Positions 6,787 to 62,069 of a stretch of DNA of 64,000 nt are shown here, piece after piece. The notes under the pieces were generated by a model, which worked only from the letters and a program-made list of their open reading frames with translations, had not been told where the DNA came from and ran no database searches. The DNA is from Heliocybe sulcata (Eukaryota > Basidiomycota > Agaricomycetes > Gloeophyllales > Gloeophyllaceae). Both the position numbers and the translations under genes were made by a program. The stretch is from positions 1 through 64,000 of the forward strand of contig ML213540.1 of the NCBI GenBank assembly GCA_004369045.1, given 5' to 3'. Position 1 is the stretch's first letter. Every line of letters starts with the position of its first letter.

Positions 6787-8065
6787 TGTGAATAGAGAGA
6801 ATAATTAAGGAGGGATGTACGAGTCTAGTGGAGTGGTGAGGGCTGAGAGAGAGATGGGAGACCCTGCTGCCAGGGGCGCAGGGCGAGTGGGCTTAAAGAT
6901 GGGAGCCAGGGTGGTGTTGGCTGGGGTAATAAGCAGTCAGGCGGTTGGTGATGGAAGAAGCCGATGGAGAGAAATTCCAAACGGGGGCGGTCCAGACCCC
7001 GGTCCGGGGTACCTGGGAAACGCGGGGTACGGCTACGGATGGCTGTGTGACTTCTTGCACCGCAGGCTTCGAAGTCCCAAGCCTGCGACGCTGGCAACAG
7101 AGGGGGATCGAGAGGGGATGGGAGGAGCAACAGGCTGGAATTTTTCAGCTCTTATAAGCATGCAGGAAATAAAAATCTGACGTACGTAGAGGAAAGTAGT
7201 CAAGTGGCGTGCGAAGGTTATACAAAAGGGGATAGGACAGAGCCATATCTAGACGAGCAGCGACTCTTCCGTAGCGAGCAAAGTCTTAACTCGCCTCTCG
7301 TAGTACACCTCTTCCCCGACTTTCTCGCATTTGCTCCCGGCCAATGACGCGAACGTGAACGCATCGGAGGGCAGAGCTATGAAGCTTAGGCAGACCAAGT
7401 GACACTGTGGGTATGCTGACGGTAGTCGCCCAGAGTTGCTGAGAGACCAGGCAATACAAATGCTTCGGAGCGCGTATAACCGCAGCCTAGGCGTAAAATT
7501 AATCGTGGTCTGCTGCCTCGCCGCTCTCAGGGAACGGTCCCAGAAGCGACGTACGATTGAGTTTGCGTTCACAGGCCGTTTGCGAGATCACCCGAGAAGC
7601 GACGATCCGGACTGTTCTGGGACGATTCCCGCAGAAGGTGGCGGAATCTAGGCGAACGCTACCAGCACCCGGGATAACTTCATGCCCTACAAGGTCAAGA
7701 TCTTCGCGGCTTCCAAGCGACGAATTACCGACTACAATGGAGAGTTTCCCCAGAACAAATCACGAAATCATGCACGAGGCAAGCCTCACCGTCGCCGCAT
7801 AGATCAGATAATCGCGTGGAGATCGAACCAGCGGAGATCCCATCGTGACACAAGACTACGTTCTCATTAAATTCAGCGAGCACTCTCGCAAAAAGCTGCA
7901 CCGGCACGACAAAAACAACAAAATAAATAACATCAGCTGAATATACCAACAACCCGACTCGAGCGGGCCATATTTGCCGGTACCGCGCACGTGGGTAACT
8001 TCTAACGTTTTCTTGTCAAGACACCACCCGGACTTGAAGAATTGTTAGCAAGATATATACGTGCT
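6787..8065. other. Intergenic between SRPK-like kinase and HNH gene
   Basis: A divergent intergenic region of about 1.3 kb. On the minus strand near 7250-7370 there is an open stretch ending EKVGEEVYYERR, which has a protein-like composition and might be the 3' tail of a lost gene. I could not find upstream exons or name it. The remainder shows no recognisable feature. Confidence 0.4.
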
Positions 8066-8142
8066 CCGTCTGAGCACTGAATCTCCCTACGCGCCAGCGT
8101 TCCAACTCTTCCCTCGCCCAGTCCCTCTACCACCGAGCGCAA

Positions 8143-9659
8143 ATGTCTCGAATCGTCTTCGAGCGCGACGCGCAACAATACCGCGTCGGTTTACCCCGCC
8201 TCAGAAAATTACCTCCTAATCCTCACATATACGACGCGCCGACTGCTAAGGACGCCGCCCTGGTCCGCGCGAATGCACCGCGGTCAGAGAGTGCACAAAC
8301 GGACCCTGAGCCTACTTCGTTGAAGCGTGTTCGCCATTTTCTTCTTGTGCACGACCAGCGGTTTTTTCTCACCGGCTCTGCGGTGCCTGACCTTCAGGCA
8401 GCCCACATCATTAGTCCCGTTCGTAAGAACTTGGGCAGGAAGCAGAGAGTGGTGAGTCCTCGTTCTGCATTCACTACACCACCTTCTGACATATTTACTC
8501 TAGGAGAGCTTTCAAATTTTACAGCAGTCCCTCAGTCCTCCTAGAGCTGCATCATTCTATCTGGATGAGCCCTTCAATGCTATTCTTTCTAAGCCTACCC
8601 ATTTCACATGGCTCCGTTGATTTCTATCGGTTGAACATTACCGATGTAGTGGAAGCTAGCCTTCACGTCCACTGGGACACGTACGGTACTTTCTGTTTCG
8701 TTCCAGCTGAAGCGAATGTCGTCACTATGCTGAAGGCTCTACGCCAGTCAAACCAAGACTGGGAGGATGTAGTTAGACTTAATCCATCCCTAAATCATTT
8801 GCCCTCTCGATGTACGCCTTTCAGACCCGCATATGAACGACACTGACGGTAATCCAAACAGGTAACAGCAGAGCCTTACAACAAACCCATGTGGCACGTC
8901 GTCGTCCTGCATCCCTATGCCATGCTCCCCGAATGCCAGCCACTCCCCATCGCGCAGAACCGAACCTTCCATCGGCAAGGGCAGCCGCGAGTGACATGGA
9001 CCTCCTGGACCCCCTCCTCGCCGCCTCCCCACCTCACGAGCCCCTCCCTCCCTTCCCCGCCTCAGACATCCGCGACAGTCTCCTCAATCCTGCGATCTCT
9101 TCTCTCGCAATGGTCATCAACGCGCACTCCAAGCTGGAAGTATTCATGCGGGACCACGGCGCTGCTGCTGCTCCTCGTATCCAAAGATATGCACAGCTGA
9201 TGTCGGACCTCGTCACTGAGATATTTTTTGTGCCCGAGGGGATGGGGAGTGTGGCTGTTCGAGAGTCGTCGCTAAGAGTTTCTGTCCCTAATTCAAGTAA
9301 AGCTGGTGTCGTACCAGGACATACAAACCGAACCACCGGCCAATCTCCAGGTGCAGGACACGAGCACGGCGGAACTAATCCGCACGGCAGAAAGCAGGAA
9401 ACTCCAGGCCCGGCCGATACCGACTCAGCGGATGCCCCTGAACCCCCAGCAGAAGACGGCCTAACCGACACCGAGTTGCGCTTGGTCGAGGCGCAAGCCT
9501 TGCTCCCAAGGAATGCGCGAATGCGGCGATGATGATAATGCTATTCGGCACTCGCGGTATGTGCTCGCACGCTCTCTGGGAGTTTCGTCTCTGACTTGAT
9601 ACCCGTTATAGGGATATAGGGATTACAACGCGGAGAGAGAGCAGGCTCTAGGCGGGTGA
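8143..9659 (+). pseudogene. HNH-nuclease-domain protein gene, decayed
   Basis: Encodes a basidiomycete HNH_2-like protein of unknown role. The ATG at 8143 opens MSRIVFERDAQQYRV and LPPNPHIYDAP. The motif FFLTGSAVPDLQAAHIISP corresponds to the first part of HNH_2, with Phe where most members have Cys. After a GT-AG intron, FYLDEPFNAILSKPTHFTW supplies the Asn and second His. Then HVHWDTYGTFCFVPAEAN, KPMWHVVVLHPYAMLPECQP, DMDLLDPLLAASPPHE and DDDNAIRHS follow, with a last exon RDYNAEREQALGG. The frame is not continuous: a stop near 8610 could be avoided only by a 34-base intron, and frame slips lie near 8950-8995 and 9512-9535. It is probably a pseudogene. Its 5' end is present again, inverted, at bases 1-195. 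Confidence 0.72.
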
Positions 9660-9984
9660 TGTGGATCCACAACGTGTACTGTGGCTTCAGACCAGCTTCC
9701 ACAAATCGGCTCGACTACTGCAAACTCCCACTGCAGACCATCTCAAGGACCGGACACGCTGGCTCGTAAAGGCGATGCATTCTTCCTTCACCAGAGTCCC
9801 AAATAGTCGATATATAGCCGTCCAAATGACAGCTGAGCAGATAGAGTCAGAACGTGATAAGGTGTATCCGTTAGCGCTTCAGAGCGACATCTTTCAAACT
9901 TTTGTCATTGACAGTTAACCCAATAGATTGAAGGATCCGACGACGGTCGTTGCAGCAACGCGACGTCGACACCGGAAGTCCCCG
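9660..9984. other. Spacer after HNH gene, with small ORF
   Basis: A plus-strand frame at 9661-9918 reads MDPQRVLWLQTSFHKSARLL and ends TFVIDS. It has no recognised domain and follows the HNH stop directly, so it could be chance or a remnant of a larger C-terminus. Nothing else was seen before the segmental duplication begins at about 9985. Confidence 0.3.
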
Positions 9985-10065
9985 AATGACAGTTATAAAT
10001 AACGGCTTTTCAGCGCAATCCCAAGGAATGATGGATCAATAGACGTGCAAGCTTGTTCCGCCTTT

Positions 10066-11941
10066 TCAAGAAGAGGGGCAGTTCGCGTCGGTGTACATCG
10101 TGGCGTCCGCGGGGCCCGACTGCAGCGGGTTGCACCCCGGGAGCTTCGTCAGCGTCCCGTTGACTTGTTCCTGTGCAGCGCAACCGTCAGCATCCGTCAC
10201 AGCCGATGCAGTCATGAAACGCACGTTCACGATGGGGTTGATCTTGCACGCGTTGGCAACCGAGGCAGAGGTGACGGTGAGGTACGAGCACGCCTCGGTT
10301 ACACCGCTGCCGGTCTCGTCGTTCGGGTTGTTGCAATTGTCGATGGCGTTTTGGAGGGCGGTGGTGTCCCATCTACAGGACAGTCAGGCTCAGTTGACGA
10401 TAAAAGGCGAGGCGGGGACTCTTTACCCGTTCTGGAAGTCTCCGTGCCAGGAGTAGCCGGTGGGGTCACTGCAGACAGATGCGGTCAGGGGATGCGTGCA
10501 GGGAAGGAGCGGGAGGCGGACCCGGTAGCGTAGACGAACGGCCAGCTCTCGGTACTCGGGTCCCATTGGTCGGCGAAGTCGTGGACATTCCATGTGATCT
10601 CGGGCACGGTCAGCTTCGACGTCTCAGTCGTGATCTATCAGATTCGACGGACCTCGTAGAAGAGCTGCTGCATCCGTCAGAGTGGGTCTAGTTAGAATCG
10701 ACCGGGCCACGGACCTTCATCAGCCCGACCGGGTAGCCGGGCGGGCAGGACCCGTTGTCGAGTTCGCTCAGGTAGGCAACCTGGACAGTCAAGGCATGGA
10801 CGCAGGATGAGCGACGCGGGCACGTACATGTGAGTTGTCGGTCTTGTAGAGGTTGACGCCGTCCCAGCATGCAGGCACTGTAGAAACAAGCGAGTTCGTC
10901 ATGGCGCAGGGGCCTTTCGGGCAGGGACTTACTGTGCAGGCGAGCCTGCGTACACGATTGAGTAGGATGGGCGTCTGAGAAAAGGACAGGTCTTACGTTG
11001 AACCCAGATTCGCAGTCCGTCCAGGGGAAGCCGGTGCCGTTCGTGTTGTCGTACCCTAAAGACATTCCTCAACCCGCTGCGTGCTTACGCCTTCGGATAG
11101 ACTGACCGACGTTGGAGCCGTAGCGCAGGCAGGCCCACTGGATGGCGCGTTCGCCCAGCTCTCCTGCAGACCGAACTGGCGATCAGCATGCATAAGACTC
11201 CTGCGCATGCAACGAACCCTGGCTCCCTTCGCCGACGGGGTACTTCTTCGATCTTCGTGCCGGGTTGCCGGTGATCATCTGCAAACCCGGAGGGAATGCC
11301 TATGGCTTGATGTCAGTACGGCTGGTCAGAGCACAGAGAGACGCTTGCCTTCAAGCCAGGACCATTGTTGCTCTGTAAGCGACCCGTGAGGTCGTGAACG
11401 TCTTTATACGCATGGCACGAGATACACGCACCACGTCGTCGTCCCCGCGGTTCTGGTAATAGACCAGGAGCCCGCCGTTGTCCACGGCGGTGAACGTATT
11501 TGCGGTGCGGTCGTGGAAGTAGAGCTTTGGGTACCAGTAGTTCGAGAGGTCCTGCGCGACCTCGCACGAGGTGCAGGAGGAGGCGCGCAAGGTATTGTAG
11601 TCGTAAGTCGGACCAAAGTCTGGAGCGAGGGTCAGCAGAGGACACGAGGACAAATGGGAAGGGTGTACTAGAGGCTCCTTCGACCTGTGGAGGGGTTGGA
11701 GTCAGCGTGATGGGGCGGTGAGACAAGCTTACGGTGTGGACATGCTGGGAAGGGTTCTGTCCCGGGTTCAAGACAGGATCAATACTAGGGTTGTCGGTCA
11801 GTAACACTTGTGGCGGGATGGTTCTGGATGGGCTCACCGTTCTTGTACGAGGGGGTCTGTGCAAGCGACGCGGAACCAAGCGTTTGCGACTCCCGAGGCA
11901 CTCAGGATAGCGAGGAGAGAAACGAAGGCGGGGCGCAACAT
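10066..11941 (-). CDS. Secreted DUF1996 protein, copy 1
   Basis: A secreted protein of the DUF1996 family, whose molecular function is not known. The ATG at 11941 begins a signal peptide (MLRPAFVSLLAILSASGVA) followed by WFRVACTDPLVQER. Spliced exons give DPVLNPGQNPSQHVHTV, EGASNFGPTYDYNTL, SSCTSCEVAQDLSNYWYPKL, VDNGGLLVYYQNRGDDD, QMITGNPARRSK, IQWACLRYGSN, GYDNTNGTGFPWTDCESGFN, CWDGVNLYKTDNSH, ELDNGSCPPGYPVGLMK, DPTGYSWHGDFQNG and a Cys-containing end DANCPSS with stop at 10066. The HxH motif, Cys pairs, FPWTDC and YSWHGDF are family hallmarks. About ten introns can be placed with GT-AG ends. It diverges from GH128 copy 1 across 2.2 kb. I see no break in the frame. Confidence 0.9.
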
Positions 11942-12072
11942 CTTTACTGGGTGGCTTAACTACAACCAGAGGGGGGTGAAGGACGATGATAACACTTGAC
12001 TTTAAGTAGAGATGAAGCAGAAGTATAGGGCCGCAGCCAGATTGTCCAGGCAGTCCCAGGTCCCAGCGGCTA

Positions 12073-12985
12073 TTACCATGCTGCCGCTCATCATGAGTGC
12101 GAGCGAGATCAGAGACATTTTTGCATGCCGAACAGGATCCAGGGTGAATGGTGATGGTGATTCGATTCTCGAGCACGATGTACATTGATCCTAGTCCTCA
12201 TCGTGAACCCACGAGAGCACTCTAACTGCCGTAAGGAGAATACGATCTGCAGCTTCAGTGGGAAAGAGTACGAGTATGCTGGACAGGAACAGTTGAGCCG
12301 TCGTCTGCAGTGGCTGCCATCAATGCCAAGAGCATGTAGATCAAGGTTGTGTACGTACATCTGTTGATCCCGAGAGTGTAGCTTTGTTCGCGGTAACCCA
12401 GTGCTCTCCGCGAAAGGTTACCGCAGTGCAGTCGCCGTAAATGCCGCAGGAGACATGGCCCAGTGACGAGCAGAGCATATGGTGCAGTAGTTGAGTTTGT
12501 GCTGCAGTTGTAATTGACAGATTCCGATACCTAGGTCAGATTACTATGCTGCCGCTCATCATGAGTGCGAGCGAGATCAGAGACATTTTTGCGTGCCGAA
12601 CAGGATCCAGGGTAGATGGTGATGGTGATCACATTCTTGAGCACGATGTACATTCATTCCATTCTTCATCATAAGCACACAATAGCACTCCTAATTGCCG
12701 TAAGGAGAATGCGGTCTGCAGCTCAGTGGGAAAGAGTACCGGAAGAGTTGAGCCGTGGTCTGCAGTGGTGCCATCAATGCCAAGAGCATGTAGATCAAGG
12801 TTGTGTACGTACGTTCGTCGGTGCCGGGAGTGAGCTTTTGTTCGCGGCAACCTAATGCTCTCCGCAGAAGGCTATCGCAGTGCAGTTGCCGTCATTGCCG
12901 CAGGAGACATGGCCCAGTGACGAGCAGAGCATATGGTGCAGTAATTGAGTTCGGGCAGCAATTGCAATTCTGAGGCCTAGGTCAG
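12073..12985. repeat. Direct tandem duplication in the shared control region
   Basis: Bases 12073-12538 and 12541-12985 are two adjacent direct copies of one segment. Both begin with a match to TGCTGCCGCTCATCATGAG and contain GCATGTAGATCAAGGTTGTG and GGAGACATGGCCCAGTGACG. Small indels separate them (about 466 and 445 bases). Unit 2 has one copy (about 20705-21180). The duplication therefore probably arose in unit 1 after the larger duplication. Confidence 0.9.
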
Positions 12986-13140
12986 CAAGCCCGAGATTTG
13001 ATGGGGTCGCGGTAAAAACTTGGGTCCATCGCTATGGATAGTGCTTGGCTTGAAAGCTTGATCACGAGAACGCATTCAGGGAGGACTGAAAGCAAGGCGT
13101 CATGTCAAAGTTCGGACATTGATTCACTTGAAGGAACTTG

Positions 13141-13790
13141 TGGGTAGCCGGCCACCGCTCACGTGGCATTTTTACGAGTCCTGAGTAGAACTGTGGTAGC
13201 GTTGTGATTAAGTAACACTATATATAATACTACAGTGATTCCGGTAAATAAAACCCTCCAGTTGAATATACTTCATGCATCGTGCCATAGAATCTGGCTC
13301 AACTGACCTGCGCCACCGACTACAAGTCCCATTCAACGCGTATTCCCACGGTAACAGAGGTGAATTCGACAGCATTGAAGGGTGAGGGATGCTAAAGGGG
13401 TGATAAAATCTTGAAAATATTCCGGTACGCAGGTCCAATTCTCATATGCTTATATTCAAAATTTGAGGTGCAAAGGAATGAGCATCATGGAGACCGACAA
13501 GAATTAGTGATCGAGACCACTACAAAACGTGTTTTGTACTCCGCTTGTAGTCTCAATAGGGGCGGGGTTTCATTTGAGTGTATTGATAACTACAAAGACG
13601 TTCATACTCCGATTACTCGGCATCTACTTTCCCACGGCGGGAACGTTCGGCAGCGCGCCCAAAAAATGCATGCAAAGACTCATCCTTCGTAAACTCAGGA
13701 CTCGTAACCTCTACGCCGGTAGGATTGAAGACTGAAAGCTTCAAGCTTTCAAGCTTCAGAGACACAGGTCAAGAAAGCGTTCCTGCTATT
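13141..13790. other. Block in unit 1 without counterpart in unit 2
   Basis: Flanking sequences align between units (CATTGATTCACTTGAAG on the left, TTGCTCAGGATAG on the right), but unit 1 has about 650 bases here against about 140 in unit 2. No terminal repeats, gene or target duplication was recognised, so it may be an old insertion or a deletion in unit 2. Its right part contains a short AAGCTT-rich palindrome near 13732-13758. Confidence 0.5.
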
Positions 13791-14131
13791 GCTCAGGATA
13801 GGCGCAGCTTTCATTCATGAACTGCTCCCGCAACTACCGTGGGAACGGCCTTGCCCATGCAGCTCCGATTAACCAGCTCTACTACAGCACCTGATTCTGT
13901 CTCCTTTCCTGGGCCCACGGAGCGGGCAATTGTGCTGGAGACCGACTGATTCATCTCTGCGCATCGTGTGATACATCCACAAAGCATAATCGTAAATGAT
14001 GGATCGGGGTCTTTAGCAGCGAGTGCACTGTTTCCTTAGGTACCCGTCGGGCGGCCGTTTGGGATTGAATATCAATGTGTAGCATGGCCGAGGTGTAGTT
14101 ACACCGTCTGTAGCAAGCCATCCAAATCGCC

Positions 14132-15250
14132 ATGCTCAGACTTACCCTTCTTACTTCGGCTGTGGCCATTGCCTCCCGCACTCTGCAAGTATGGGGTGCG
14201 AAGCGTGGTCTCGGCTGGCCCTCAGAGTGAGTGTACAGCGACTATGTCTTGCGGTCCTCGCTCACTAATATATGTGATTCTCTCAGTAACAGTTTGTCAA
14301 CCCGTCGATGTGCAGGGTCTCGTAATTCAACCCGGTTTTTCCAGATTTTAATCCCGCCATATTCGAATCCTCCGAGGTCGACTGGCTCTATGCAAGTCAC
14401 CACATCACTGTTGTTAGAAACAGCCTTGACAATCGATATTAGGACTGGGGCCAGACCAACACCGCGGCCAACGATGAGTTCCCGTTCTACGCCATGCAGT
14501 GGAACGGCGGCGGGATCCAGAACCTCGCATCGGCCGTGGCATCGCAAGGTGTAACCGTCGTGCTCGGATTCAACGAGCCAGACAACGCGGGGGAGGCAAA
14601 CATGACCCCAGCTGACGCAGCTACATGTATGTCCATTACGCTCAGCCGTGCCTTGCTCAATTACGACGGCAGTGTGGAAGCAGTATATCCAGCCACTAGC
14701 TGCCGATGGTGTGACGCTGGTCTCTCCAGCTGTTACTTATGGTGGGTCCGGTTTGCCTTGGATGGACCAGTTCCTGGGGAACTGCACGGCATGCACGGTG
14801 GACAAGATTGCGATTCACTGGTACGGAGGTAGGGAGGCTCCTTCTCTCCTCTCCAGGCGGGGTCGCTCCATCGCGTAATTAGGCTGGACGGGTGATCTCG
14901 AGCCCTTTGTCGCGTCTTTCCAAAAGTACGATAAACCTATATGGCTGACCGGTCAGTCGACCCTCCGGCGGCGAGTCTTAAACTCAGCGCTCACCTACAT
15001 TATGTATAGAATTCGGACTGTCCTGGGACGCGGGCGCCGATAGTTACGAAGAGTTCCTGCCTCTAGCTCTAGAGTACCTAGACGGCAACGCATATGTTGA
15101 AAAATACGCCTTCTTTGGTGCCTTTCATTCAGGAGGAGGTACGCGGTCAGCTGATATAAAACCCTTCTATGCTGATAATTCACACTAGCCGAAGATATGA
15201 TCAACTCAGATGGTCAGCTCACAGCTCTCGGCCAGATCTACGTCTCTTGA
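14132..15250 (+). CDS. GH128 Asl1-like endo-beta-1,3-glucanase, copy 1
   Basis: A secreted glycoside hydrolase family 128 enzyme, expected to cut beta-1,3-glucan in the cell wall. The ATG at 14132 gives a signal peptide (MLRLTLLTSAVAIAS) followed by WGAKRGLGWPS. FNPAIFESSEVDWLY, DWGQTNTA, FYAMQWNGGGIQNLA, VVLGFNEPDNAGEANMTPA (acid/base Glu), LWKQYIQPLAADGVTLVSPA, CTACTVDKIAIHWYGGW, PIWLTEFGLSWD (nucleophile Glu) and GQLTALGQIYVS complete a full-length domain. Eight exons are needed. The second is only five bases (14287-14291, TAACA) between introns 14227-14286 and 14292-14344. The next intron (14392-14442) has a GC-AG boundary. All other junctions are GT-AG and the frame is open, so the gene looks functional. 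Confidence 0.93.
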
Positions 15251-15754
15251 TGCAAGGGTATATCATATATTGTCACTTCTATATACCAGAGTGTTCGCGA
15301 AATTCAAGTCGCGTTCACCGTTTAGGCCGAAGAGACAGGTATGGCATGCAGATGCTTGGCACACGGATGCATGCAGGACGGTACCCACAGCCTCGGCGCG
15401 AAAGAGGTCAATGTGACCCGCATTGTTGAAACCTGGGTTCCACTCGCCATTACACAAGCTCAAGTCCGAAATGACAGGGCCTTGGCATACGCAGGTAGGC
15501 TCCGTTCTCTTCACGCATGTATAGACCTTTCCTCCGCTGTCAATGATACAAGCATACAACGTCCGAGAGCCTTGTCCTTACACATAGCGAGGTGCCGTCC
15601 GCAATCTCGTGGTTTCCAGCTCGTACACCAACAACCAATCCACTCCCTGGCAATCTATATCCAATCAAAATCCTCTGTACCCACACCATCCTTCACCCAA
15701 ATCTCAATCACTCGATACACCATACAAATAACGATAACATCCCACAACGCCCAC
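15251..15754. other. Convergent 3' region, GH128 and TRP1
   Basis: About 500 bases between the GH128 stop and the TRP1 stop. Similarity to unit 2 ends within the first 25 bases. I see no gene here. It should contain both transcripts' 3' ends. Confidence 0.5.
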
Positions 15755-18121
15755 TCACGCCGCCCCCCTCGCCGCGCTCACAAACGCCCTCACCTTCTCC
15801 CCCTCCTTCCCGCCCCCATCCGCGCGCTCCACGCCCCCGCTCACGTCCACCGCCCACGGCCGGACCATCTCCACCGCCTCCCGGACATTCGCCGGCGTGA
15901 GCCCGCCCGCGAGGATCACGGGCACCTCGATGCTCCGCGCGTACGCCCAGTCCACGACCTCCCCGCTCCCCCCGCTCAGCCCATCTTTCCGCATCGAGTC
16001 CAACAACACAAAGTGGTGGTACCCCGGCTTCTTTATTTCCATTTCCGCTTCCTCTCTTAGCTCGGAGGAGGCCGAGGAAGAGGGGACGTGGAACGCCTTG
16101 ATGACGGGCACCGGGAGGAACTTGGGGTAGTCTAGTGGTTCGCCGCCGTGCAGCTGTACCATGTCCAGCCCGACTTCCCGCACCACGGATAGGATGTAGG
16201 CGAGCGGCTGGTTCTGGAACACGCCGACGAGCAGCGGTCGGGTGCGCGGGAGGGTGTGGGCGTGGTGCGTGAACCACGGGAGTCTTCCTGACGAAGCAGG
16301 ACGAGGAGAAGGAGGAGGAGGAGAAGAAGAAGAAGAAGAAGAGCGGAAAGAACGGATGGACAAGGCGATTTCGACGGCGGTGGGGACGGAGACAAGGCGC
16401 TTGGACGAGGGGACGAACATCAGCCCGAGCATATCCGCGCCCGCCTCTGCTGCCTCCCGCGCCTCGTCCACGCTCCTTATCCCGCATATCTTCACGAGGG
16501 GGGTATGCGCCTGCTGTTCCTGCACGGACTCGGGAATGTCGAGCAGCTCCCGGATCGCAGACGCGGGGTCCCGCGCGCGCATGAGCGCCTCGCCCACCAG
16601 CACCGCGTCCACGCCCTCCTCCTGGTACTTCCTCACCTCCTCCGCTCCCGCTATCCCGCTCAGCGCGCAGAGCACCACCTCCTGCCCCGTCGGCTGTTTC
16701 CCGTTCCACTCCCTCACGGTCCCCGCCAGTCGCGATGTTGTTTCGAGATCGACTTTGAAGTCGTGCAGATTGCGGTTGTTGACGCCGATAACCTTGGCGC
16801 CGAGGTCGAGGGCGAGTTGGAGTTCGCGCGCGTTGTTGACTTCGACGAGGGGTTCCATGCCGAGGGTGAGGGAGTAGGTGTAGAGGCTTTCGAGGCGCGC
16901 GGGGGGGAGCATGGCTACGATCAGGAGGACGCTGTCTGCGCCGTTTACTCGCGCTTCTAGGATCTGGTAGTCGTCTAGTATAAAGTCTTTGCGGAGAATG
17001 GCTGGGCGATCGGCTAGCGAGTCCACGGCTAGCCGCGCGAGGCGCAGGTCGGTGAGCGTACCGGAAAAGTGTGGGGTCTCAGTGAGGACGGAGATGACCC
17101 GCACTTGCGGGGAGGCGAGGGCGTAGGTGAGCGCGAGAGAGGAGACGGGAGGGGGGGAAGCGGTCAAGGGCCCTTTTGAGGGGGAGCGCCGTTTGATTTC
17201 GGCGAGCAGGGAGGGCGAGGACGAGGAGGGTTTTAGGGCGGCGAGGAAGGAGGTTGTGGGAGGGGCGAAAGGCAGGAGGGCTTTTAGGTCTTCGGGCGAA
17301 GAGCCGGGGGAGGCTTTGAGTGCTTGGACGTCTCTCAGGCGCTGCGTGTAGATTTTGTCAAGTATGCTGGGGATTTTTGGATTAGAGGATATGTCGAGGG
17401 GCGGGAGTGTCGTGTCCAAGACGAGTGAGTCGGGGTTGTCGGCCCACTTGCCGCCTTTGAGCGCTAGGAAGTTGAGGAGCAGGGGATCGCCCTGCTCGGA
17501 GAGACAGGACTCGGGGTGGTACTGGACTGACTCTAGGGTGTAGGTGCGGTGGCGGACGCCCTGGATGACGACAGGCGGGCCGGGTGAGAATGCACTGACC
17601 TGGAGGGCGGGCGGGAGGGTGGAGGCGGAGGCGGCGAGGGAGTGGTAGCGCGTGGAGGAAAAGTTTTGCGGGAGAGATCTGAAGATGCCGCGACTGTCAT
17701 GCCGGATGGAGGAGACCTTGCCGTGCATGATTTCACCCGCATAACTGGATGAAGCCTCAAATGACTGCATTATACCATGGCAGCTGACTCACCTGATCTG
17801 CCCTCCAAAGACGTCGACGAGACATTCCAGCCCCATGCACACTCCCAAGACTGGGACCTTCCCTGTGAAGAATTTGATGGCGTCTCTGGAGATGCCCGAG
17901 TCTGTGCGGGGGTGGCCTGGGCCGGGAGAGATGACGAGGTGCTTGATGTCGAGCAGAGGCAGCGCGGACGACGAGATGGCGTCGTTGCGGATGACCGTCA
18001 CATTTGCACCGAGCAGAGAGAGCGACTGGTAGAGATTGTACGTGAACGAGTCGAAGTTGTCGATCATCAGCACCTCGATGGGCTTTTGCAGCGCCGGCGG
18101 GAGCGACGACAAGGACGCCAT
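15755..18121 (-). CDS. TRP1: Trifunctional tryptophan enzyme (GATase-IGPS-PRAI)
   Basis: Combines the glutamine amidotransferase of anthranilate synthase, indole-3-glycerol-phosphate synthase and phosphoribosylanthranilate isomerase of tryptophan biosynthesis. The start is the ATG at 18121 (MASLSSLPP); the upstream in-frame GTG was rejected. Exon 1 is 17793-18121 and exon 2 is 15755-17744, with one 48-base intron. The amidotransferase has VLMIDNFDSFTYNLYQSL, ISPGPGHP, catalytic Cys in GVCMGLECL and the His-Glu pair in QYHPES. The synthase has LLAEIKRRSPSKG, LVEVNNARELQLALDLGAKV and GVNNRNLHDF. The isomerase has VKICGIRSVDEAREAAEAGA, DMVQLHGGEPLDYPKFL and DVSGGVE. An added Ser/Pro-rich loop encoded by a GAG/GAA microsatellite (16305-16350) sits in the isomerase part. 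The gene lies between two direct repeat units of several kilobases. Confidence 0.97.
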
Positions 18122-18552
18122 GGCTGCAGAGGACACCGGGGAGAGCTTTATGTAGGCCCACCGGAGAGAGGGCTTATGTTATGAGAGTAGTACACCGGCA
18201 ATTGGCGAAATTGAGTCGAGTGGCGATACGTCAGCATCATCTCGATCGCGTTTCGGACATGTCCGCGATGTGGCAAAGCCTCAACTGGATGATGGAATAG
18301 CCCAGGTGCGGAGAGCAGAGACGAGTTTGCCAAGTAAATATACCTAGTAATCAAAGCGTCACTTGCCAACGATTTGCCTCAGTTCGAAGGCAATGCGAGG
18401 TCACGAAAGAGTATTCGCACAAAATGCACGTGACGAGGCTCGATCATTAGAAGGGCCACAACAACAGAGCGAGTTCAAGTAACCCAATAAATATCTCTCC
18501 AACAGATACAACAGCAGTCCTTACACACCAAGTACACAAATGACTCGAAACG
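18122..18552. other. TRP1 upstream region
   Basis: This 430-base stretch between the TRP1 start and the left edge of duplication unit 2 should contain the TRP1 promoter. I recognise no regulatory site with confidence. Confidence 0.5.
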
Positions 18553-18651
18553 AATGACAGTTATAATGAACGGCTTTTCAACGCAATCCCGAGGAACAAT
18601 AAATAAATACCCATCAATCAACATCCTACAGCCCTACCCTGTTCCGCGTTC

Positions 18652-20578
18652 TCAGGAAGAGGGGCAGTTCGCGCTGGTGTACATCGTGGCGTCCGCGGGA
18701 CCCGTCTGCAGCGGGTTGCACCCCGGGAGCTTCGTCAGCGTCCCGTTCACTTGCTCCTGTGCAGCGCGAACACAATCAGCATCTGCCACAGCTTATGTAG
18801 TGTATGAAACGCACGTTCACGATGGGGGTGATTTTGCACGCGTTGGCAACTGCGGCAGAGGTGACGGTGAGGTACGAGCATGCCTCAGTGATACCGCTGC
18901 CGGTCTGGTCGTTCGGGTTGTTGCAGTGGTCGATGGCGTTCTGGAGGGCGGTGGTGTCCCATCTATATACACTCGGGGTTAGTTGATGATGGAAGGTGAG
19001 GCGGGGACTCCGTACCCGTTCTGGAAGTCTCCGTGCCAGGAGTAGCCGGTGGGGTCACTGCAGACAATGCGGTCAGGGGATGCGTGTAGGGAAGGAGCGG
19101 GAGGCGTACCCAGTAGCGTAGACAAACGGCCAGCTCTCGGTACTGGGGTCCCACAGGTTGGCGAACTCGTGGACGTTCCATGTAACCTGCAGCTCCGTCA
19201 GCTGCGATATCTCAGTCTGCTGTGACATATTCGACGGACCTCGTAGAAGAGCTGTTGCATAGTCGACAGTCAGTCAATATTGGAGGTATCGACCGGGCCA
19301 CAGACCTTCATCAGTCCAACCGGGTAGCCAGGCGGGCAGGACCCGTTGTCGATTTCGCTCAGGTACGCGACCTGGACAGTCATGGAATGGACGCGTTAAT
19401 GGAATGTGGTGACCGATGAGCGGGCACGTACGTGTGATTGGTCGTCCTTGTAGAGGTTGACGCCGTCCCAGCAGGCAGGCACTGTAGTCAGGAGTTAGTT
19501 CATCGTGGGGTAGAGGTGCTGTCGAGCAGGGACTTACTGTGTAGGCGAGCCTAAGTATGAGACCGGTCGTAAATGAGTATGATGAAGTCTTGAAAGAAAG
19601 GAACAAGTCTCACGTTGAACCCAGCTTCGCAGTCAGTCCACGGGAAGCCGGTGCCATTCGTGTTGTCGTACCCTAAAGACAATTCTTCACCTCACACTAC
19701 CTGCTTCCTGCGTACAGACCGACCTTCGTTGCTTGTGCCATAACGCAGACAAGACCACTGGACCGCGCGTTCACGAAGCTCTCCTGCACACCAAAGCGAC
19801 TATTAGAATGCAGATCAGACTTCTTCGCGTGCAACGAACCTTGGCTGCCTTCGCCGACTGCGAACTGCTTCGACCTGCGCATCGGGTTGCCGGTGATCAT
19901 CCGGAAACCCGCTGGGAACGCCTATCGCTGGATGTCAGTGTACGATCGGTCATAGAGCATGGAGAGCTCCGCTTGCCTTTAAGCCCGGCCCGTTGTTGCT
20001 CTGTTCACACCCGTGAGCTCACCCATCTCTTTCCGTGTATGCCACAGGAGACACGTACCGCATCGTCGTCCCCCCGGTTCTGGTAATACACGAGGAGCCC
20101 GCCGTTCTCCACGGCTGTGAAGGTGTTGGCCTTGCGGTCGTGGAAGTAGAGCTTCGGGTACCAGTAGTTGGACAGGTCCTCTGCGACCTCGCAGGAGGTG
20201 CAGGTGGAGGCGCGGAGGTTGTTGTAGTCGTAGTTCGGGTTGAAGTCTGGTGCGAGGGTTTTTAATGGAAGCAGAGACGGATGGGAGCGGTGTAAGCTTA
20301 CTGGAGGCTCCTTGGATCTATGGGGATAAGGGGATCAGTGGGGTAGGATTTGTGGGATGAGACAGGCGTACGGTGTGAGCATGCTGGGAGGGATTCTGTC
20401 CGGGGTTCAGAATGGGGTCAATACTAATGTAGTCGGTCAGTCACTACGTGATGAAACAGTGTAGATGGGCTCACCGTTCTTGTACGAGGGGGTTTGTGCA
20501 CGCGACGCGGAACCAAGCGTTCGCGACGCCCGAGGCACTCAGGATGGCGAGGAGAGAAATGAAGGCGGGGCGCAACAT
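18652..20578 (-). CDS. Secreted DUF1996 protein, copy 2
   Basis: Paralogue of the gene at 10066-11941 with the same exon plan. The ATG at 20578 begins MLRPAFISLLAILSASGVAN, a signal peptide, and WFRVACT follows. NPSQHAHTI, QGASNFNPNYDYNNLRAS, CTSCEVAEDLSNYWYPKLYF and VENGGLLVYYQNRGDDDA then follow; the same GFPWTDCEAGFN, CWDGVNLYKDDQSH and YSWHGDFQNG motifs lead to the C-terminus TSANCPSS at 18652. The first motif is HAH here and HVH in copy 1. It diverges from GH128 copy 2 over 1.3 kb. The frame appears open throughout. The biochemical role of the family is unknown, and pairing with a beta-glucanase suggests a wall-related one. Confidence 0.9.
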
Positions 20579-21881
20579 CTTTACCGAGTAGCCTGATTAC
20601 GATTAGAAGGAAGGCGGATGAAAGGTGAAAGGTGATGCCGTTTCTTGAGCTAGTTGGCTTTAAGTATGTAAGGAGAGACCAGCAGAAGTATAGGATTGGC
20701 CAGGCGATCCCGAGTATGACCATGCAGCCATCACGAGTGCGAGCGAGATCGGGGACATGAGCCGCCTGCCGTGGCAACCAGGATCCAGGGTGGATGTGAT
20801 GTTGATCAGGCTCGAGAGCACGATGTACATTAATGTGTCCTGATAGGTACTCCTCGTGTGGTGCACATCACCCTGGAAAGTAGTACTAGTCCTAATTGTC
20901 GTAAGGAGTACCAGTGCCTGGGATAGGGTAGGTGAGAGTACGAATCCGTTCGACGGGGGAGTTGAGCTGTGATCTGCAGTGGCTCGCCGCTAATGCCAAG
21001 AGTGTACAGCACGTAGATCAAGGTTGTGTACATACTTTACACTTGTCGGTCCCGAGAGTACGGCTCTCTTCGCGGTAACCTAATGCTCTGCCGAGGAGAC
21101 ATGGCCCAAGGATGAGCAGAGCATATGGTGCCTAGTAGTTAAGTCTGGGAAGCGTTTGTGATTGACAGATTCCGAGGTCGGCAAACGGGTGGCGAGCGAG
21201 GGCTTTGATGGGGGTTGGAACTTAGGCCTTGCTAGACCAGGGATGGAAAGCTTGACCACGAGAACATGTATACAGCGAAGAGTGAAAGCGAGGCACTATG
21301 ACTGAGCCTTGAGGTCCATGGACCTGTGGCAATAGTCGTTCGTCCCGCGCACATTCACTTGAAACCGTCCGCTCTAGTAGGATGTAAGACTTTAATGAAG
21401 CAGTCCGAATTGCATTCTTACTAGTACCATCAATGCGCGAATATTGCTCAGGATAGCCGCAGCTCAGGAATAAAGATTTTGATGGGCTGGGTGATGCGAT
21501 GCGGGGAACGGGCGACTCCAAATCCGCGGGCAAGTCCAAGTCGCCAACTACACTGAACTATTCGACTACCTAACACTGCTCTTTTTCTCGGGCCCGCTGT
21601 GTGCCATGCGGAACCATCAGTTGTGCTAGAGGAGGCCTACTTTTCTCCCACTGATCCATGTCTTCGCATGGTGCACGAGTCTCCTGGTTACTCGCGCGTG
21701 ATGGATGCACAAAGCATAATCATAAATGACGATCGGGATCTTTAGCAGCGATGTGCTCTGTCTCCTGGCAGCCCATGCAAGCGATGTCCCTCCCAGTATC
21801 ATTTGCGAATGATGCGTAGTATATATCGAAATACGACTGCGTTGTCGGAAGCAAGCCATCTTTCCTCTTCCCCGGATCGCC
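20579..21881. promoter_or_regulatory. Shared divergent control region, unit 2
   Basis: This 1.3-kb region separates the start codons of DUF1996 copy 2 and GH128 copy 2 and should carry both promoters. It matches unit 1 at its flanks and in one copy of the segment that is duplicated there. No defined transcription factor site was assigned. Confidence 0.55.
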
Positions 21882-23026
21882 ATGCTCGGACTTACCCTAC
21901 TTACCTCAGCTGTGGTTATTGCCTCTAACACTCTTCAAGTGTGGGGCGCGAAGCGTGGTCTTGCCTGGCCCTCAGAGTGAGTGTACCCCGACTATGCCTT
22001 ATGGTCCTCGCTCACTGACATACACAATTCTTTCAGTAACTGTTCGTTAACCCATTGCGCTTCGATGTGCAATCCCTCTTAATAGAACCTTTTCAGACTT
22101 TGATCCCGCCATATTCGAATCATCCCAAATCAACTGGTTCTATGTAAGTCAATTTTTACGATTGCGGTCGTTGGATACATTCTTGACAATCGATGTTAGA
22201 ACTGGGGACAGAACAACACCGCGGCCAACGATGTTTTCCCGTTCTACGCCATGCAGTGGAACGGCGGCGGGATCCAGAGTCTCGCATCGGCTGTGGCGTC
22301 TCAAAAAGCAACCGTCGTACTCGGCTTCAATGAGCCGGACAACGCTGGTCAGGCGAACATGACCCCAGAGGATGCCGCTACATGTATGTCTGTCCTGCTC
22401 GTGGATGGATAACGTACCGTATTCAATTACTGCGGCAGTGTGGAAGCAGTATATCCAGCCGCTAGCTGCCGATGGCGTGACCCTGGTCTCTCCTGCTGTT
22501 ACTTATGGTGGATACGGGCTGCCTTGGATGGATCAGTTCTTCGGGAACTGCACGTCATGCACGGTGGACAAGATTGCGATTCACTGGTATGGAGGTAAGG
22601 AGGCTCCTTCTCTCTCCTCTTAGCGCAGGTTCGGCAATGTTCGCTAACATCGCATACTTTAGGCTGGACAGGTGACCTCCAGCCCTTCGTCGAGTCTTTC
22701 GAGAAGTACAACAAACCTATATGGCTTACCGGTTAGTTGATTCTCTGACGGTTTCTAACCCAGCGCTCACCTGCATGATATATAGAATTCGGGCTTTCGT
22801 GGGATGCGGGTGCCGATAGCTATGAAGAGTTCCTGCCTCTAGCTCTAGAGTACCTGGACGGCAATGCGAATGTCGAGAAGTACGCATTCTTTGGCGCTTT
22901 CTATTCGGGAGGAGGTAAGCGGCTTGCTGCTATAAAGCACTTCTATGCTGATAATTTATGATAGCCGAAGATATGATTAATGCTGACGGTCAGCTCACGG
23001 CTCTCGGCCAGATCTATGTCTCTTGA
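21882..23026 (+). CDS. GH128 Asl1-like endo-beta-1,3-glucanase, copy 2
   Basis: Paralogue of the gene at 14132-15250. The start at 21882 reads MLGLTLLTSAVVIASNTLQV, followed by WGAKRGLAWPS. FDPAIFESSQINWFY, NWGQNNTANDVFPFYAMQWN, VVLGFNEPDNAGQANMTPE, LWKQYIQPLAADGVTLVSPA, CTSCTVDKIAIHWYGGW, LTEFGLSWDAGADSYEEFLP and GQLTALGQIYVS show both catalytic glutamates. The five-base second exon is conserved in place (22037-22041, TAACT) between introns 21977-22036 and 22042-22096. The following intron (22144-22199) has a standard GT-AG boundary, unlike copy 1. The gene looks intact. Confidence 0.93.
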
Positions 23027-23108
23027 TAAAAGGGTATATTATATGGTACCATTGGTTCAGCTTTTCTATACACCCGTCCCTACTACACGGTGGTTGACAA
23101 CATGTTTG

Positions 23109-53400: not shown

Positions 53401-53403
53401 GTC

Positions 53404-55233
53404 GTGGGCCCTAAAAATATACACATTTTACCACAACTATGGTAAACTCATATGCACCACTTTAGTACTCCATATATGTTTATGGTTGTAGTCACATTAT
53501 ACTGGATATAATTTGACCACATTATGGTATGCTTATACATGATTGAGCCAGGATTATACAGGATGTATATATTGACTGTATATGGTTAAGGGGACATTAT
53601 ACTGTGTGTGTATAGGATTGCTCTGGATTTATACCAGAATTGTAGGGTATGTCAGGCTATTTATACTGTGTTTATGAGATGTGGCAGGGGGTTTGTACTA
53701 AATTTGTATGCTCTGTTTGTTAGTTCATATGGGATTGTATACTGCACTGCTATATTTATATATGGGGTATATGATATTGAGGTGCCTTTGTATAAACTTG
53801 CAGGGCAGTTATACTAGATACATGCCATCTGGTGGTGCATTTATATAGTGTTATACCAAATCTGGCTCATATTATATAAGCTATATACCTTTGCAGGTTG
53901 CTTTATATTGAATTTATATGAAATGTATGGGCACTTTGTATAACTATAGGGGAGATCTGGTCACATTATATGAGATTTATATCCAAATTGGGGGGGCTCT
54001 GCTGAGTGGAACCTTCCACAAATCAGGGATCCCTATGAGCCTATATGGGACTACAGTTTGACCCAATAACATGGGGAATATCTCCCAGGATAGAATTAGT
54101 GCACCCCATCACCCTTCCAGCTGGTTCTCTGCCCACCTCCAGCCTCCTAGAATGCTACTCTCCACCTATTCTGCTGCTTGGAGGTCTGATTCCATGTCAA
54201 TAGTGTTGTACCTTAATTTACATGGCTTCCAACAGCAGGTCCTGCTACAACAGACACTGTTTCCAGTCCAGTATGCACACATATGGACTGGATTCCAGAC
54301 AAGTTTCAGATGCTTACTAAAGTGCTGTGGGCTTCCCATTGTGCTCCCCCAAGCCAACCCAAGTCTCCACTTGTGCTTTCTGATAGCTGGGGCTGGTGCT
54401 GGAAGCCATGTAAATTAAGGTACATCACTATAGAGATGAAATCAGACTTCCAAGTGGCAGAATAGGTGGATGGTAACAGTCTAGGAGGCTGGAGGTGGGG
54501 GGAGAACCAGCTGGAAGGGTAGGGGGGTGCACTAATTCTATCCTGAGAGATATTGCCCATGTTATTGGGTCAAACTGTAGTCCCCTATAGGGTCATAAGG
54601 ATCCCTGATTTGTGGGAGATTCCACCCAGCAGGGCCCCCCCCCATTTTCATATAAATCTCATATAATGTGACCAGATCTCCCCTATAGTTATACAAAGTG
54701 CCCATACATTTTATATAAATTCAATATAAAGCAACCTGCAAAGGTATATAGCTTATATAATATGAGCCAGATTTGGTATAACACTATATAAATGCACCAC
54801 CAGATGGCATGTATCTAGTATAACTGCCCTGCAAGTTTATACAAAGGCACCTCAATATCATATACCCCATATATAAATATAGCAGTGCAGTATACAATCC
54901 CATATGAACTAACAAACAGAGCATACAAATTCAGTACAAACCCCCTGCCACATCTCATAAACACAGTATAAATAGCCTGACATACCCTACAATTCTGGTA
55001 TAAATCCAGAGCAATCCTATACACACACAGTATAATGTCCCCTTAACCATATACAGTCAATATATACATCCTGTATAATCCTGGCTCAATCATGTATAAG
55101 CATACCATAATGTGGTCAAATTATATCCAGTATAATGTGACTACAACCATAAACATATATGGAGTACTAAAGTGGTGCATATGAGTTTACCATAGTTGTG
55201 GTAATATATATATATATATGAGTTAGGGCCCAC
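53404..55233. mobile_element. 1.83-kb palindromic (foldback-like) element
   Basis: Two arms of about 835 bases (53404-54237 and 54396-55233) are inverse complements of each other and enclose a 158-base loop. The ends are GTGGGCCCTAA and its inverse complement. The outer 660 bases of each arm occur a third time, alone, at 61407-62069. The inner 170 bases of each arm, after TTTGACCCA, are not in that third copy. One outer end has a TA run (55203-55219) where the other reads CCCTAAAAATATACAC. No transposase is encoded. No clear target-site duplication was found. It may be a foldback element, or two inverted copies of one terminal repeat. Confidence 0.85.
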
Positions 55234-61395: not shown

Positions 61396-61406
61396 TTCCG
61401 GGGTCA

Positions 61407-62069
61407 TGGGCCCTAAAAATATACACATTTTACCACAACTGTGGTAAACTCATATACACTACTTTAGTACTCCATATATGTTTATGCTTGTAGTCGCATT
61501 ATACTGGATATAATGTGACCATGTTATGGTATGCTTATACATGGTTGAGCCAGGATTATATAGGATGTATATATTGACTGTATATGGTTAAGGGGACATT
61601 ATACTGTGCATGTATAGGATTGCTCTGGATTTATACCAGAATTGTAGGGTGTCTCAGGCTATTTATACTGGGTTTATGAGATGTGGCAGGGGGTTTGTAC
61701 TGCATTTGTATGCTCTGTTTGTCAGTTTATATGGGATTGTATACTGCACTGCTATATTGATACATAGGGTATATGATATTGAGTATAAACTTGCAGGGCA
61801 GTTATACTGGATATATGCCATTTGCTGGTGCATTTATATAGGGTTATACCGGATCTGGCTCATATTATATGCATATATATAAGCTATATACCTTTGCTGG
61901 ATGCTTTATATTAGATTTGTGTAAAATGTATGGGCACTTTGTATAACTGTAGGGGAGATCTGGTCACATTATATGAGATTTATTTCCAAATGGGGTGGGG
62001 GCCTGCTGGGTGGAATCCCCCATAAATCAGGGATCCTTATGACCCCATATGGGACCACAGTTTGACCCA
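61407..62069 (+). repeat. Solo copy of the palindrome's 660-bp outer repeat
   Basis: This segment begins TGGGCCCTAAAAATATACAC and ends TTTGACCCA. It matches 53406-54065 on the plus strand and the inverse complement at 54570-55231, with scattered changes and small indels. It lacks the inner part of the palindrome arms. This shows the 660-bp unit can exist by itself, like a solo terminal repeat or a separate small element. Confidence 0.88.

Follow-up and report, generated by a model that had tools for sequence, protein, structure and literature searches.

Very short exons in fungal genes

Exons of a few nucleotides have been described in several fungi. The predicted genes of Phlebia radiata are described as typically having very short exons, some of less than a codon and as small as two or three nucleotides (PMC6540522), and P450 genes of Phanerochaete chrysosporium have exons of 6 bp (PMC1184071) and an 8-nt exon inside a conserved motif (PMC12940212). 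A one-nucleotide exon of Fusarium CYP621A has 18 supporting sequence reads, and Nelson and Syed reasoned from intron sizes in the same way as is done below (PMC12940212). Long-read annotation in Ganoderma lingzhi is reported to have difficulty with very short exons (PMC11590231).

The window analysed here, the first 64,000 nucleotides of contig ML213540.1 of Heliocybe sulcata, contains two GH128 genes (A and B), in each of which a second exon of five nucleotides is predicted. P. radiata is likewise a wood-decay basidiomycete with many introns and very short exons, but the published statement is a genome-wide one on gene models, and a GH128 micro-exon is absent from the portion of that paper covered here (PMC6540522). 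P. chrysosporium is also a basidiomycete with tiny exons and small introns, although its P450 genes are another family and the 5 nt of GH128 is slightly smaller (PMC1184071; PMC12940212). The Fusarium case follows the same logic (a phase mismatch, an over-long intron, an intron-free relative as ruler and a codon spread over three exons) but concerns an ascomycete and a single base and is backed by reads (PMC12940212), whereas the GH128 exons are predicted from genomic sequence. Xlr2 of Trichoderma virens also has a fungal microexon, but regulated inclusion is a feature of Xlr2 (PMC11121469). Because exons of 1-8 nt are published for Fusarium, Phanerochaete and Phlebia, and tiny exons occur in the DUF1996 genes next door, an exon of five bases, which the preliminary description had called rare in fungi, is unexceptional in this setting. 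No report of a GH128 micro-exon was found in the titles and abstract beginnings listed by searches of open-licence literature, which makes for a thin absence.

Two GH128 genes and their neighbourhood

Genes A and B are twin predicted glucanase genes of family GH128. Both proteins match PF11790 (Glyco_hydro_cc), which we take to be GH128, at 204 and 207.7 bits (cut-off 21) over profile positions 1-237 of 237. The acidic residues E94 (NEP motif) and E186 (TE motif), presumably the catalytic pair of GH128, are invariant in both copies and in three partial sequences from solved structures. GH128 enzymes cleave beta-1,3-glucan, an activity that is only predicted for genes A and B. A scan of viral contigs using the GH128 protein gave no match.

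10066-11941, minus strand: DUF1996 gene, 16 exons (Pfam PF09362, 1.8e-73, residues 37-282 of 364)
14132-15250, plus strand: GH128 (PF11790) gene A, 8 exons, 248 aa (Pfam 3.4e-60)
18652-20578, minus strand: DUF1996 gene, 16 exons, modelled as a copy of the first (the Pfam match was checked on the 10066-11941 gene only)
21882-23026, plus strand: GH128 (PF11790) gene B, 8 exons, 248 aa (Pfam 2.6e-61)

A head-to-head pair of DUF1996 (minus strand) and GH128 (plus strand) is thus present twice, at 9983-15268 and 18551-23044, and a tryptophan-pathway gene lies between the pairs on the minus strand (GATase/IGPS/PRAI, by Pfam on the ORF 15755-17788; judged by eye, it probably runs on to about 18178). 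Exons of 16, 24, 13 and 12 nt recur at corresponding positions of the two DUF1996 genes.

In the 400 bases upstream of the GH128 starts, 208 of 328 columns align, with many gaps. A patch of 73 columns there (13965-14036 and 21695-21766) is 85% identical and could be a shared promoter element. Upstream of the first DUF1996 gene is a tandem repeat of about 440 bp (12072-12515 and 12540-12969, 85% identical). Elsewhere in the window, inverted copies at 53401-55233 and 61403-62069 (95% identity, with further copies at 89%) look like ends or fragments of mobile elements, and inverted copies of about 210 bp with 84% identity are found at 1-206 and 8047-8255.

Gene models and the two predicted micro-exons

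The exons of gene A (plus strand) are modelled at 14132-14226, 14287-14291, 14345-14391, 14443-14626, 14673-14828, 14883-14951, 15010-15138 and 15189-15250, and those of gene B (plus strand) at 21882-21976, 22037-22041, 22097-22143, 22200-22383, 22439-22594, 22663-22731, 22786-22914 and 22965-23026. The features around the second exons, all on the plus strand, are as follows.

14132-14226: exon 1 of gene A, 95 nt, from a signal-peptide-like start (by eye) through WPS
14227-14286: intron 1 of gene A, 60 nt, GTGAGT..TCAG
14287-14291: micro-exon 2 of gene A, TAACA, in the best-scoring splice model
14292-14344: intron 2 of gene A, 53 nt, GTTTGT..CCAG
14345-14391: exon 3 of gene A, 47 nt, followed by a GC-AG intron 3 (14392-14442)
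21882-21976: exon 1 of gene B, 95 nt
21977-22036: intron 1 of gene B, 60 nt, GTGAGT..TCAG
22037-22041: micro-exon 2 of gene B, TAACT, in the best-scoring splice model
22042-22096: intron 2 of gene B, 55 nt, GTTCGT..TCAG
22084-22085: AG that would serve the closest rival in copy B (109-nt intron, 21977-22085)
22097-22143: exon 3 of gene B, 47 nt, followed by a GT-AG intron 3

TAACA and TAACT stand exactly where the preliminary description placed them, each between an upstream TCAG and a downstream GTTTGT (A) or GTTCGT (B), with flanking introns of 60/53 nt (A) and 60/55 nt (B). The junction would be read as GA|TAACA|AT (D-N-N) in gene A and GA|TAACT|AC (D-N-Y) in gene B, the third residue being shared between the micro-exon and exon 3 in both (a detail beyond the preliminary description), and the predicted spliced junction reads TCAGATAAC[AT]A. 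The in-frame joining of WPS-D-N to the next segment that had been claimed is borne out by the gene models, as both genes, spliced in this way, are open across 747 nt, stop included, and give 248 aa with a full PF11790 match. Both exons are internal, at 5 nt well within the limit of about 30 nt for a micro-exon, and flanked by spliceosomal GT-AG introns in the best-scoring models; a length of 5 departs from the multiple of three that is usual for regulated neuronal-type microexons and permits both isoforms (PMC11121469).

GC-AG borders occur in 3 of the 44 modelled introns, at 14392-14442 (plus strand), 11300-11348 (minus strand) and 19922-19976 (minus strand). The DUF1996 intron has GC in both copies; the GH128 donor is GCAAGT in copy A versus GTAAGT in copy B. 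A GT donor at 14396 was also tried for intron 3 of gene A and breaks the frame; the aligned GC donor at 14392 leads to the frame of gene B.

Reading frame, intron sizes and divergence of the copies

With exon 1 ending in phase 2 and exon 3 having to be entered in phase 1, two bases modulo three are missing between them. Exon 1 joined directly to exon 3 yields two altered residues and then a stop, after 33 residues in both copies; retention of intron 1 gives a stop after 32 residues in both, so that forms omitting the exon or retaining intron 1 end at codon 33-34, and retention of intron 2 gives a stop after 103 residues (A) or 46 (B). The micro-exon is thus required for the reading frame, with another in-frame route existing besides in copy B.

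The 40 other introns (10 of GH128 and 30 of DUF1996, the borders of the latter picked by eye for an open frame common to both copies) served as size reference and as the source of a splice-site matrix, a small one. They measure 46-68 nt (mean 53.8, SD 4.2), and a single merged intron without the micro-exon would measure 118 nt (A) or 120 nt (B). The introns flanking the micro-exon had been described as good GT-AG introns, which is mostly right; the exceptions are the weak acceptors of intron 1, which score 1.32 in A (1 of the 40 others is as low) and 2.52 in B (5 of 40), and a low donor 2 in copy A (2 of 37 others as low, against 11 of 37 for copy B).

The two copies share 220 of 248 residues, and their Ka/Ks of 0.10 (Ka 0.057, Ks 0.56) agrees with purifying selection on the frame that the micro-exon model produces. 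Aligned columns are 86.7% identical in exons and 73.0% in introns, and length differences are found in introns 2 to 6 and in none of the exons. Given this considerable divergence, both introns and the micro-exon have persisted through it; the agreement of A and B is non-independent because they are paralogues, and the comparison at the DNA level comprises these two, plus the top-ranked relative described below if that sequence is fungal.

Intron-free relatives as a ruler

Prokaryote genomes were scanned for relatives; 463 were obtained, and the 80 best of them were used. Between the KRG[LVIA]-like start and W.Y.W, a strict motif measured the spacing in 63 of these 80 (17 were unmatched) as 22 residues in 52, 23 in 10 and 28 in 1; on 53 distinct segments it gave 22 in 45, 23 in 7 and 28 in 1. 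A looser motif, which leaves out L017, L071 and L076, measured 77 of the best 80 and gave 22 (62 relatives), 23 (11), 27 (2), 28 (1) and 37 (1), the last being L018, which is mis-anchored and has 23 by the strict motif. The spacing is thus 22-23 residues in 73 of the 77 relatives measured. Under the micro-exon model both copies have a spacing of 23, compared with 25 for the copy-B rival with the 109-nt intron and 15 for a rival with an upstream donor; a spacing of 25 is possible in principle, because 27-28 is seen in 3 of the 77.

In L001, the top-ranked relative, a single open frame reads KVGLAWPNGN, and the spacing is 23 by the looser motif. Among four models per copy L001 favours the micro-exon (353 versus 346 for the next, and 361 versus 356), with two compensating two-residue gaps in the junction stretch of the pairwise alignment. 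Its uninterrupted GH128-like ORF (L001:415-1317; 300 aa with a signal-peptide-like start) is on a eukaryotic-looking contig deposited as Candidatus Ichthyocystis sparus, and it may be a eukaryotic contaminant in a bacterial assembly.

Alternative splice structures

In-frame structures were enumerated with the start codon and exon 4 fixed, one to three introns of 40-130 nt, and GT plus a few GC donors, giving 301 models for copy A and 27 for copy B. Against a small profile made solely from the best 80 of the 463 relatives, the micro-exon model scored first in both copies (A, 73.0 versus 70.3 bits for the next model; B, 77.5 versus 76.7 bits). When every intron was required to reach 6 of 9 on an ad hoc splice score, 15 models for A and 3 for B remained, and the micro-exon model was again at the top by profile score in both (for A, among the 12 of the 15 that were listed). 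Among the models listed (the 25 best per copy and those passing the splice filter) it alone both keeps exon 1 whole and is common to the two copies. This enumeration, which with introns from 40 nt is looser than the rules of the shuffle test below, further includes exons of 11 and 17 nt in A and of 9 nt in B.

With four models compared on the best 80 of the 463 relatives, the micro-exon model of copy A is sole best for 49, with 18 ties and 13 for the others; for copy B, 33 relatives put it alone in first place, 22 the 109-nt rival and 11 two others, and 14 are ties. Pfam scores of the N-terminal fragment are 18.7 bits for the micro-exon model of copy A versus 18.0, 18.0 and 17.4 for its rivals.

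The micro-exons would be dispensed with if each gene had a single long intron with other splice sites, which in copy B could take the form of the 109-nt intron (21977-22085) and produce WPSETFSDFDPAIF. That intron is in frame, has a strong acceptor (5.95), lies only 0.8 bits lower on the profile and is equal on Pfam (21.2 versus 21.0 bits for the micro-exon model), and among the best 80 of the 463 relatives taken singly it does better than the micro-exon model for 32, against 36 for which it does worse and 12 that are equal. The earlier assertion that exon 2 must be TAACA and TAACT is therefore upheld as the best-scoring solution in both copies but is too strong for copy B, where this intron is open at a near-equal score. 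Its length, however, is well beyond the 46-68 nt of the 40 other introns, the spacing of 25 residues that it implies occurs in none of the 77 relatives measured (of the best 80 of 463), and copy A has no AG at the place aligned to its acceptor. The 13 single-intron forms available to copy A, with GC and AT donors also allowed, all start inside exon 1, upstream of the strong donor, and cost part of KRGLGWPS, and such internal donors score near -4 in the forms scored (two in copy A and two in copy B). A single long intron in each gene is accordingly improbable. Chance was gauged by 2000 dinucleotide shuffles of the merged 118/120-nt interval, with the ends kept, introns of at least 45 nt and an exon of 2, 5, 8, 11 or 14 nt. 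If the five bases were a chance AG..GT pair, the true start or structure would differ upstream or the copies would be decaying pseudogenes, and some in-frame AG..GT exon does arise in 519 of 2000 shuffles for A and 200 of 2000 for B. The number falls to 99 and 16 of 2000 when [CT]AG and a G at donor position +5 are demanded, and to 7 and 5 of 2000 when a pyrimidine tract and a branch-point match are added, so that a bare AG-5-GT is unremarkable but the fully dressed site is remarkable; under the same rules each real interval holds only one candidate exon. With the Ka/Ks of the copies and their full-length domains also against it, a chance origin is extremely unlikely.

The micro-exon might instead be included alternatively, as a switch in which inclusion gives the enzyme and omission an early stop, with copy B perhaps making a second in-frame isoform via 22085. 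The stop that follows skipping in both copies, the weak acceptor before the micro-exon and the published microexon switch of Trichoderma Xlr2 (PMC11121469) are in keeping with this. An early stop is weak evidence for a switch, however, as out-of-frame skips usually end early, and fungi and protists have few cassette exons, which average 3% of retained-intron and cassette-exon events together (PMC2397502); alternative inclusion thus seems very unlikely. Equally doubtful is a conserved on/off control, in which the weak acceptor would make inclusion inefficient and splicing efficiency would set the amount of enzyme, copy B also yielding an isoform longer by two residues via the AG at 22085. It is very probable, judging from the genomic data, that each GH128 gene instead has a constitutive internal exon of 5 nt between two ordinary short introns.

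Probable splicing of the micro-exon and its significance

The micro-exon lies just after the conserved KRGL[GA]W stretch, presumably the first barrel strand of the fold, where it would complete an Asp codon (GA|T), encode Asn (AAC) and supply the first base of the next codon. It would be retained because the frame and the spacing at the junction depend on it. The spliceosome would pair splice sites across introns (intron definition), inferred to be the main mode of splicing in fungi, basidiomycetes included (PMC2397502; PMC2219887), and because sites would be paired in this way recognition would set no lower limit on exon length. Removal of the two introns is probably sequential, since factors flanking an exon of 5 nt would collide.

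The finding is a sound annotation point that leaves knowledge of splicing unchanged. With two paralogues, tight intron sizes and intron-free relatives, it offers a compact worked case for finding exons of a few bases. For this paired enzyme family it would amount to a correction of the gene models, since overlooking the exon would lose or mis-join the first conserved stretch.
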